Below, piece after piece: positions 5,389 to 33,285 of a DNA stretch of 64,000 bases. How positions within the stretch are numbered: position 1 is the first letter of the stretch; the number at the start of each line of letters is the position of its first letter. The stretch spans positions 3,737,001-3,801,000 of the forward strand of contig NZ_CP026118.1 in the NCBI RefSeq assembly GCF_004101865.1, in the 5' to 3' direction. Under the pieces are notes generated by a model. It saw only the letters and a list, made by a program, of their open reading frames with translations, was not told the DNA's origin and did no database searches. The translations under genes and the position numbers were made by a program. The DNA is from Halobacillus litoralis. Lineage in GTDB: Bacteria; Bacillota; Bacilli; Bacillales; Halobacillaceae.

Positions 5389-5652
5389 TATCAAAGACTA
5401 TATGAACGAAGAAACATGATGAAGGAAACGAGTAGGCAATGATTCCATGATCAGAGAAGTATGTTCTTGGCTGAAAAACGTACTGCATGATGATTGCTGA
5501 ACGCTATTCCGGAGTGCGGTTAACACCCGCCGTAGTTATGCCACGTTACAGGCGATTTGAGATGATAGGCGCCAGACGTCTATAATCAGGGTGGTACCGC
5601 GGAACTGAAACTCCCGTCCCTGCCGTTTTACAGGCAGGGACGGGAGTTTTTT
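5389..5652 (+). promoter_or_regulatory. T-box leader, alanine-responsive
   Basis: The conserved T-box AGGGTGGTACCGCGG begins at 5588. A strong attenuator follows: CTCCCGTCCCTGCC pairs with GGCAGGGACGGGAG (5611-5646) and ends in a T run. A GCT codon at 5503-5505, inside GAACGCTATTCC, sits where the Stem I specifier is expected and fits alanine and the downstream alaS. Uncharged tRNA-Ala would pair with the specifier and the T-box bulge and favour read-through. The specifier position is inferred from context, not from a computed fold. Confidence 0.93.
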
Positions 5653-5698: not shown

Positions 5699-5877
5699 TC
5701 CAGCTCCAGCGCCTATCCCCTCGAGGTCTTGGCTCCACACGAGGTGGGGTCGTTCGGCGTTGTAACAGGACGTTGCAATCTTAGCCGAACTTCACTTCCC
5801 TCTCTGTGACAAAGAACGTCACGGCGAGTTTCGTCTTAAGCTTGTCGGGGATGAGCAAAGGCACTTGGGTATTTTAA
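5699..5877. repeat. Interspersed palindromic repeat, copy 1
   Basis: The left end (CAGCGCCTATCCCCTCGAG) is imperfectly complementary to the right end (CTTGTCGGGGATGAGCAAAGG). An inner pair (CACGAGGTGGGGTCGTTCGGC against GCCGAACTTCACTTCCCTC) could extend one long hairpin. A diverged second copy lies at 27259-27377. From memory, elements starting CCAGCTCCAGCGCCTA are common between genes in many Bacillaceae. No protein is encoded. The stretch fills the gap between the T-box attenuator and the alaS ribosome binding site. Confidence 0.7.
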
Positions 5878-31783: not shown

Positions 31784-31918
31784 TTATTGTCCGATAACTG
31801 AAAATACGACTCCGATAAAGAAAATGACGAAGAAGAAAACAAATGAAAATACAAACCCTAACCCAGAGTCGATCACATCATTAGTTTTGGATTGAATATC
31901 GTTTTTGAACTCGTTCAT
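31784..31918 (-). CDS. yqzM: Small membrane protein YqzM
   Basis: The 44-residue protein begins MNEFKNDIQSKTNDVIDSGL and ends in one hydrophobic helix rich in F, V and I. It matches the YqzM family found next to comEC in Bacillaceae. The ATG at 31918 follows GGAGGGGTAAC. The function is unknown; one transmembrane segment is clear. Confidence 0.88.
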   Translation of the reverse strand: MNEFKNDIQSKTNDVIDSGLGFVFSFVFFFVIFFIGVVFSVIGQ

Positions 31919-32056
31919 TGTTACCCCTCCTATATCAATTACTAAGTATAGTCCATTCTCAAGCAAAAATCTACATTCTTGTCGAAGGAAATCAAAATTC
32001 ATCCCCAATTCATAGCATTCCCACACCTAGCAAGACTTGTCACATATAATTATTTC

Positions 32057-32243
32057 AGAAGCGGTCAAACTAAACGCAAGAGAGGAACAACATCGTCCTC
32101 TCCAAAAGCTTCCGGGGCTTTTGGAATGGCGTTTATATAGATGGTTCATACGGCGACGGCAGGTCACTATTTTGACAGATGTCTTATTGCGACATAAAAT
32201 AGTGACACTGACTCCCCTTTACGGGGTCGCCGTATTCTTTTTT
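32057..32243 (+). ncRNA. Candidate structured RNA: two tandem three-way junctions before holA
   Basis: Domain 1: TAAACGC (32071) closes with GCGTTTA (32135) over two hairpins, GAGAGGA/TCCTCTC and CCAAAAGC/GCTTTTGG. Domain 2: ATACGGCGAC (32148) closes with GTCGCCGTAT (32235) over GTCACTATTTT/AAAATAGTGAC, itself extended by ATGTC/GACAT, and CCCC/GGGG. About 50 bp are formed in 165 nt. A TATAAT (32045-32050) lies 7 bp before the proposed 5' end and TCTTTTTT follows the last helix. It could be a small RNA or a cis-acting leader of holA, whose ribosome binding site begins 3 nt later. No known family was recognised. Confidence 0.6.
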
Positions 32244-32265
32244 ATGAAGGAAGGAAATAACCTTT

Positions 32266-33285
32266 ATGGTCAATGTAAAACAATCACAGGTATATTTATT
32301 ATATGGAGAAGAATCATATCTCATACAAGAGAATAAGAATAAAATCATAAAACAAACCTTGAAAAAAGAAGATCGAGAATTCAATGTTTCTCAATATGAC
32401 CTAGAAGAAGTTCCAGTGGAAGATGTCGTCACAGATGCAGAAACTTTCCCTTTTTTAGGGGATGGAAAAGTTGTTATTGCTTTTCACCCTGTTTTCTTAA
32501 AAGCTAAGCCAGATAAACTGTCATTCGAGCATGATGTTGAGGCACTGCTTGAATACATCCAAAATCCTGCTGAATACACGGTCTTAGTAATAGTTGCCCC
32601 ATATGAGAAGTTGGATGAACGGAAAAAAGTTTTCAAGCAATTGAAAAAGCATGGAGAAGTGATCGACTGTCAACCCGTTAAAGAATGGGATATCGACAAG
32701 TGGATCCAAACTCTTGCGAATGAACTACATATTACAGTCCCTGAAGAAATTCATGAATTGTTCACTCAAGAAATAGGTGCCAATTTGATGGCATTGAGGA
32801 AGGAAATGGAAAAGCTCGCCTTGAATGTTGGTGAAGGTGGTGTCGTAACCAAAGAATTGGCTGAACAACTGCTTTCTCATAGTGCGGAAGCTTCTGGCCT
32901 CAAGCTGGTGGATGCAGTTATGGAAAAAGACTTAGGAAGAGCGATACGTATTTATAAAGACTTGGAAAAGTTGAATGAAGAGCCGATCGCGTTAACTGCT
33001 TTATTGGCTTCCCAGTTCCGCATTATCAATCAGGCAAAAGTATTGAAACAAAAAGGTTACGCACAAAATCAAATGAAAGGTTACATCAAAGCACACCCGT
33101 ATGTAATAAAAATGGCTTTGAAACGGGAGCGGTTTTTTACAAATCAAGAATTGAACCGGATTATAGAACAGCTAGCAGAAACGGATTATACCCTGAAACA
33201 GGGGAGAATGGAGAAATCTCTAGCCTTTGAAATGCTGCTTTATAAGTTGATTCACATTAAACAAAATCAACCGATTACTTCTTGA
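32266..33285 (+). CDS. holA: DNA polymerase III delta subunit
   Basis: HolA is the clamp-loader subunit that opens the beta sliding clamp. The 339-residue protein has YLLYGEESYLIQENKNKI at the N-terminus, the VIVAPYEKLDERKK strand-helix, QEIGANLMALRKEMEKLAL in the middle, and the C-terminal collar domain (ALLASQFRIINQAK, LAETDYTLKQGRM). The ATG lies about 11 nt after GAAGGAAGG. It directly follows the structured element and is followed by a terminator. Confidence 0.96.
   Translation: MVNVKQSQVYLLYGEESYLIQENKNKIIKQTLKKEDREFNVSQYDLEEVPVEDVVTDAETFPFLGDGKVVIAFHPVFLKAKPDKLSFEHDVEALLEYIQNPAEYTVLVIVAPYEKLDERKKVFKQLKKHGEVIDCQPVKEWDIDKWIQTLANELHITVPEEIHELFTQEIGANLMALRKEMEKLALNVGEGGVVTKELAEQLLSHSAEASGLKLVDAVMEKDLGRAIRIYKDLEKLNEEPIALTALLASQFRIINQAKVLKQKGYAQNQMKGYIKAHPYVIKMALKRERFFTNQELNRIIEQLAETDYTLKQGRMEKSLAFEMLLYKLIHIKQNQPITS

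Follow-up and report, generated by a model that had tools for sequence, protein, structure and literature searches.

A conserved structured RNA element upstream of holA in Halobacillus litoralis and its relatives

The gap between the yqzM and holA genes of Halobacillus litoralis folds beyond chance, and counterparts occur beside holA across the order. Our preferred reading, to which we assign a probability of about 0.6, is that the gap specifies an independent noncoding RNA of ~185 nt that has its own promoter and terminator, forms a homodimer through a kissing loop, and probably acts in trans. All coordinates refer to the window, which is the whole 64,000-nt stretch of H. litoralis DNA that was analyzed. 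The proposed RNA would occupy 32057..32243 (+ strand), with its start placed ~7 nt past a −10-like hexamer and its end at a T run. As far as sequence comparison can establish such features, it establishes conservation at one locus, the strand, covariation in one helix, a self-complementary loop, and a hairpin on the 3′ side. From this foundation we infer the transcription start, the formation of dimers, and action in trans.

According to this proposal, transcription would begin at an unusual promoter at ~32027-32050 and end at the hairpin at 32148-32243. The transcript would fold into a short closing helix (P1) that encloses a long hairpin (P2), and two copies would join by a kissing loop between the six self-complementary bases at the tip of P2. 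The homodimer would most likely act in trans, together with a protein or with other RNAs, by way of an invariant GUUUAUAUAGAU strand. It would not be a leader of holA, which would be transcribed from a separate promoter.

Fold and conserved architecture

The element is flanked downstream by a gene for a 339-aa protein (32266..33285, + strand) and upstream by a divergent open reading frame for a 44-aa peptide (31784..31918, − strand). We take the former to be holA, which encodes the delta (clamp-loader) subunit of DNA polymerase III, from an earlier sequence-only reading of this DNA and from the gene order comEC-yqzM-holA-rpsT. The latter is presumably yqzM, a name taken from Bacillus annotation. 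The HolA protein of the window is 74-90% identical to the HolA proteins of 21 named Halobacillus records. The order Caryophanales was formerly called Bacillales, and NCBI places Halobacillus in this order of the Bacilli.

The + strand from 32040 to 32270 has a predicted folding energy of −78.6 kcal/mol, compared to −51.4 ± 4.3 kcal/mol for 200 dinucleotide shuffles (z −6.38, with 0/200 as low), and the minus strand of the gap region yields a z of −5.65. The sequence-only reading had described two tandem three-way junctions here, and the helices, the TATAAT, and the T-run site on which it relied are all present in the window. Specifically, 32148-32157 pairs with 32226-32235 at 10/10 positions, and 32163-32173 pairs with 32196-32206 at 11/11. 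Also present are TAAACGC/GCGTTTA (32071-32077 with 32129-32135), GAGAGGA/TCCTCTC (32080-32086 with 32096-32102), and CCAAAAGC/GCTTTTGG (32102-32109 with 32117-32124). TATAAT occupies 32045-32050 and TCTTTTTT occupies 32236-32243, and AAGGAAGG begins at 32247, 3 nt past TCTTTTTT.

The tandem junctions themselves are not a conserved architecture. The closing helix and 5′ stem of the first domain are paired at 79.5%, versus 79.2% in shuffled columns (29 sequences), and only the 3′ hairpin of that domain (~32094-32131) covaries. The sequence-only reading noted TATAAT, and it did not include the conservation of the promoter-like block around it, the holA promoter embedded in the second domain, or the self-complementary loop.

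Order-wide, the element has five parts: a 5′ block, a variable stretch, P1, P2, and an invariant strand that is followed by a hairpin. The transcription start should fall in the variable stretch, which separates the 5′ block from P1. Helix P1, a weakly supported candidate, has its 5′ strand at 32070..32074 and would pair with 32136-32140, with one mismatch in this species. In a model-fitted alignment of 79 sequences, 83.7% of P1 cells are paired and 3/5 pairs exhibit changes on both sides. A 9-bp version in the unfitted MAFFT alignment is 65.9% paired with 0 double changes, and single-sequence folds of five loci (L052, L053, and L102-L104) extend P1 to ~9-13 bp.

Hairpin P2 (32094..32131) is the conserved, covarying core. 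Its base is formed by CGTC/GGCG (32094-32097 with 32128-32131), and its upper stem by 32102-32109 with 32117-32124. The base is paired in 99.4% of cells of the model-fitted alignment, and all nine upper pairs are double-changed there. Counted over the whole structure, this alignment of 79 sequences holds 322 double-changed cells, compared to 86.0 after shuffling, and the MAFFT alignment of 29 sequences holds 59 versus 20.6, with all 59 located in P2. Covariation exceeds all 500 shuffles by 5/5 measures in the fitted alignment and by 4/5 in the unfitted one, where the fifth measure (8 pairs double-changed versus 6.7 when shuffled) was reached by 117/500 shuffles. Covariation, for which the sequence-only reading had proposed to inspect the comEC-holA gap of relatives, is thus present, and it is confined to P2 in the unfitted alignment. 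The final part is a nearly invariant GCGUUUAUAUAGAU across the order. In the window, the nearly invariant GCGTTTATATAGATGG (32129..32144) supplies the 3′ base of P2 and then the 3′ strand of P1.

Distribution and genomic place

In the counts that follow, family, order, and class denote groupings of the genome collection sampled. BLASTN located the region in 34/44 family genomes, with one match in each. A covariance model built from 29 sequences (R1) matched 111/397 order genomes, and a second built from 79 sequences (R2) matched 299/397 order genomes and 114/135 genera, with one match per genome among the matches listed. In the class sample, R2 matched 33/398 genomes, comprising 31 from the same order (the H. 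litoralis genome included) and two from another family (f55). Such models learn from their own matches, and an independent check is provided by genomic place, given that neighboring genes are not part of the model. The element lies between comEC and holA in 55/55 matches of one set and 26/26 of another, which share seven genomes and represent 74 distinct ones. Furthermore, holA begins 72-435 nt downstream of the element in 90/90 cluster representatives. The yqzM gene was found in the examined stretch of 68/74 genomes, and the element is kept in the six whose stretch lacks it (L111, L137, L143, L169, L170, and L179).

The HolA loci of 22 negative genomes (21 negative by R2, and G039 negative by BLASTN) were re-examined. 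One strong R2 match (L183, E 3.5e-11), four moderate ones (L201, L195, L190, and L189, E ≤ 0.0011), and weak matches in six further loci (E 0.012-0.18) were recovered. Because genomes scored as negative still gave matches at their HolA loci, 299/397 is a lower bound. Inspection by eye added further cases. Three loci from one genus of another family (L193, L197, and L198, in G253, G152, and G085) retain P2 with CCCGGG as well as the 3′ strand and lack the 5′ TTGACAAGAG block, and expression of the RNA may differ in this genus. A locus from a more distant family of the class (L203, in the 6.8-Mb genome G426) has no R2 match and yet retains GUUUAUAUAGAU and a loop with UCUAGA, which may mean that the RNA family extends well beyond the order. 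Losses also seem to occur. The window's own family includes two small genomes (L184 in G036 and L185 in G035) that keep yqzM and holA and have apparently lost the element; L199 seems to have lost it too (by eye).

The 3′ hairpin and the start of holA

The terminator-like hairpin of the RNA (32148..32243, + strand) consists of the 10-bp closing helix and inner stems described above, followed by the T run TCTTTTTT. Among 90 cluster representatives, the 60 nt after P1 have a median fold z of −3.36, with 67/90 below −2, and the first paired base is ≤12 nt from P1 in 90/90. A strict terminator rule that includes a T run is passed by 54/90, and at least four T residues follow the hairpin in 59/90. 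This rule permits loops of up to 15 nt and overlooks long hairpins, the one in Halobacillus among them. The count of 54/90 by the strict rule means that transcripts may continue into holA in many species.

Signals that resemble a holA promoter occur within or just after the hairpin. In several relatives, the 3′ arm runs directly into TTGTCAA, which is apparently the −35 element of holA. In the window, a candidate promoter resides inside the hairpin (32172..32200, + strand), with TTGACA at 32172-32177, a 17-bp spacer, and TAAAAT at 32195-32200. Both hexamers follow P1 in 34/34 sequences from Halobacillus and near kin, with a spacer of 17 in 32 and of 16 or 18 in two, and the stem bases around them vary. 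This arrangement is likely the holA promoter. More broadly, promoter-like sites (≤3 mismatches) lie between the element and holA in 58/90 representatives, versus 29.6 in shuffles. The terminator could not form on transcripts that begin at the likely holA promoter because they would lack its 5′ arm. The embedded promoter explains the second domain of the sequence-only reading: a strong hairpin is indeed present, but it is better viewed as the terminator hairpin of the RNA with the holA promoter inside. In Halobacillus, the −35 and −10 elements of holA sit in opposite arms of one stem, such that promoter and terminator share bases. On the other side of the gap, at 31930-31990 (− strand) upstream of yqzM, most aligned relatives have a conserved TATACTT or TATAAT together with TGTAGATTTTT or TGTGGATTTTT; these sequences probably mark the yqzM promoter, whose −35 is weak.

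These observations bear most directly on the possibility that the element is a cis-acting leader or attenuator of holA, which the sequence-only reading had offered as an option and which we now judge to be unlikely. Transcripts that start at ~32057 would sometimes read through the hairpin, and the upstream fold, perhaps with a ligand or protein, would set how often this happens and thereby tune production of the delta subunit. A leader would explain why holA is downstream at every locus examined and why just 54/90 representatives satisfy the strict terminator rule. In addition, riboswitch aptamers are usually found in this position, with P1 beside a terminator. However, single-sequence folds of representatives give no evident sign that P1 and the terminator stem exchange strands, and a leader has no need for a self-complementary loop. 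Also, the hairpin intervenes between the fold and holA, which has its own promoter-like sites downstream (inside the hairpin in Halobacillus). The attenuator proposal is weakened by these facts rather than refuted, and the RNA may be a holA leader where the T run is weak.

The same reading had put first a small RNA that carries a promoter and a terminator of its own, and this has become the best supported of its suggestions. In its favor are the single locus shared across the order, the covariation, the absence of an Rfam match, the 3′ hairpin, and the promoter-like sites for holA further downstream. Less favorable are the missing −35 at 17 bp and, again, the modest score by the strict terminator rule among relatives; in the window itself, the terminator signal with its T run is clear.

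A self-complementary apical loop

The apical loop of P2 in the window is UUCCGGG, which contains a self-complementary hexamer with U-G ends (UCCGGG, 32111..32116) that is our proposed site for kissing-loop dimerization. We compared 131 elements, which reduce to 123 distinct sequences and 90 clusters at ~80%. For each of the 90, the central 9-11 nt were disregarded when the stem was placed. Among the ten-nucleotide loops, the hexamer beginning at loop position 4 is self-complementary in 50/57, or in 43/57 without wobble pairs. Column shuffles of the 3′ half of the hexamer, which ignore ancestry, gave 32.9 ± 2.0 (maximum 40/57 in 2000), or 19.5 ± 3.2 without wobble. Shifting the register by one base to either side gives 2/57 and 0/57, and positions 7 and 8 give 20/57 and 13/57 with wobble allowed. 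The matching register is self-complementary in 17/24 nine-nucleotide loops and in 6/8 eleven-nucleotide loops.

Among the 57 ten-nucleotide loops, the hexamer forms are CCUAGG (27), CCCGGG (15), CCUGGG (6), and nine singletons. The single-step form CCCAGG, which breaks the central pair, occurs in 0/57. Exceptions at the expected register number 7/57, 7/24, and 2/8 for loops of ten, nine, and eleven nucleotides, respectively. By eye, most of the seven ten-nucleotide exceptions are mis-centered stems and L148 is a true exception, and one of the 50 (L136) is mis-centered as well. The palindrome is missing from the divergent copies L187, L186, and L201 (by eye). An earlier count with loops chosen by RNAfold gave 49/57 cluster loops versus 19.8 shuffled, and it was set aside because RNAfold pairs bases inside the palindrome.

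The palindrome is positioned off the stem axis (3+6+1) and therefore is not an extension of the stem. Its middle two bases, being neighbors, cannot pair with each other within one molecule, yet they change together, which argues for pairing between two molecules. Thus, we read the loop palindrome as a putative kissing-loop homodimer site. Well-supported branches of a HolA tree contain three independent pairs of loop switches, too few to test, in which the partner base changed the same way 2.5 times on average, remained unchanged 0.5 times, and never changed in the opposite way. On an ill-resolved, quickly built HolA tree, the central pair changes at least 21 times, which serves as an illustration and not as proof given that the pattern-based loop labels favor palindromes and cannot register some mismatched forms.

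Perhaps the RNA instead acts in trans as a monomer, with a loop whose self-complementarity is incidental or serves a protein or another RNA. The evidence of locus, strand, and covariation applies equally to such an RNA, and GC-rich loops are common seed sites. Nevertheless, concerted change of adjacent loop bases is unexpected unless the loop pairs with itself or with an equally palindromic partner, and we consider the monomer improbable.

Strand, 5′ block, and possible partners

Across the nine pairs of the P2 arms, cluster representatives with an adequate stem score contain 90 G-U/U-G combinations and 13 A-C/C-A combinations. An RNA made from the minus strand would reverse this ratio, and by this measure it is the + strand that is selected as RNA. 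The conserved 3′ strand might contact other transcripts. A search of 10 Halobacillus genomes for its exact complement, ATCTATATAAACG, gave no shared base-pairing target. There were 17 matches, compared to one for the control, and 10 of these are the element itself. Three of the seven others (G002, G010, and G012) fall in one gene with 83-87% identical DNA, on the strand opposite a long open frame, and the mRNA of this gene would not pair with the RNA because the match is on the antisense strand. The remaining four are in four unrelated places.

The 5′ block of the window is CTAGCAAGACTTGTCACATATAATT (32027..32051, + strand), as delimited by alignments and by base frequencies over the 90 cluster representatives. 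Order-wide, it spans ~25 bp and reads about YTGACAAGAGTTGTCACCNATANTT, with TTnCC located 9 bp upstream. The window block includes the −10-like TATAAT, and neither this hexamer nor the order-wide NATANT has a −35 hexamer at 17 bp. We regard the block as a putative promoter of an unusual type. Its TTnnCA units are spaced ~10 bp apart, a distance that might fit binding by a response-regulator-type activator. Searches for a regulon were negative in their scope. A 15-base pattern with two mismatches was overall no more common in 44 genomes than its reversed control (40 versus 40 in the H. litoralis genome, and 39 versus 28 in G008), and a 24-base form with one mismatch matched 11 sites in 10 genomes (seven in the element and four elsewhere) versus six for the control.

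These features of the block, together with the fact that CCTAGG and CCCGGG are palindromes in DNA, raise the idea of a DNA-level element such as an operator or cruciform, to which the spaced TTnnCA units would lend a DNA-like character. The strand-specific excess of G-U over A-C is as expected for RNA and makes this very improbable. It is scarcely credible, too, that the element controls the divergent yqzM gene as an antisense RNA. Two reports do place antisense RNA in this neighborhood: complementarity between the yqzM RNA and the holA 5′ UTR is stated for FZB42 (B. amyloliquefaciens; PMC4634765), and S962 of B. subtilis is tabulated as an independent transcript that lies antisense to yqzM (PMC7317962). 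However, the start of the conserved RNA would lie ~140 nt past the start codon of yqzM, and the RNA is retained in the six genomes without yqzM in the examined stretch. Finally, strong inverted repeats had led the sequence-only reading to mention a mobile palindromic repeat, which is refuted by the fixed place of all examined matches and the single copy per genome among the matches listed, the H. litoralis genome included, and this idea retains practically no weight.

Comparison with known RNAs

At the gathering threshold, a search of the whole window against Rfam 15 found only a T-box leader and a Bacillaceae-1 RNA, both outside the element. The T-box leader (5410-5624, + strand) scores 93.1 bits against a gathering score of 93, and the Bacillaceae-1 match (5734-5800, − strand) scores 53.1 bits. 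Permissive searches gave only three sub-threshold matches for 31900-32400 and one sub-threshold match, outside the element, for the loci of 20 relatives. The earlier impression that no known riboswitch or RNA family is present therefore holds at the gathering threshold. One survey reportedly covers 224 candidate RNAs. We found no description of the RNA in the open-license full texts searched. The relevant passages of the FZB42 and S962 reports describe no conserved structure at the locus (PMC4634765; PMC7317962). S962 lies in the neighborhood of our element and, being antisense to yqzM, has its orientation; the two may overlap (PMC7317962). The element is apparently undescribed, and we regard it as a new family within a known class of RNAs, marked by a dimer signature that is unusual.

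Riboswitch and attenuator leaders combine a structured domain with an intrinsic terminator. The element likewise places a structured domain, followed by a terminator-like hairpin, ahead of a housekeeping gene, but it differs in that no competing fold was seen, a separate promoter-like site lies downstream, and no Rfam family matches. Another likeness is to the HIV-1 DIS, in which a six-base palindrome in an apical loop pairs two copies (PMC7357161). The DIS is a dimerization signal of a viral genome with conserved purines flanking its palindrome (PMC7357161), whereas the 5′ flank in our element is often a pyrimidine. This is a resemblance only and not a relation.

In the portion of the literature consulted, RNA homodimers are described mainly for viral genomes, for some mRNAs and riboswitches, and for large, ornate RNAs. 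Among the last are the homo-oligomeric bacterial RNAs OLE and GOLLD, which, like our element, have self-complementary loops that switch between palindromes, and the report on them argues likewise from loop bases that are unable to pair within one chain (PMC12286853). The element has such a loop, with covariation that is impossible within one molecule, although ancestry is uncorrected in this comparison. It lacks the large, ornate, multi-domain structure of OLE and GOLLD, having ~185 nt and one clearly covarying hairpin.

Order-wide structured RNAs at a fixed address usually serve something basic. If its loop does join two copies, then the RNA would offer a naturally occurring homodimer that is small and simple to produce. 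It is tempting to speculate further, and we offer this only as a tentative possibility, that the element represents a near-universal RNA of this order of Bacilli that has kept its place next to holA from an early point in the history of the group and is driven by a promoter type unseen elsewhere in the searched genomes. Such an RNA would be a compact, symmetric homodimer far smaller than OLE, ROOL, or GOLLD.
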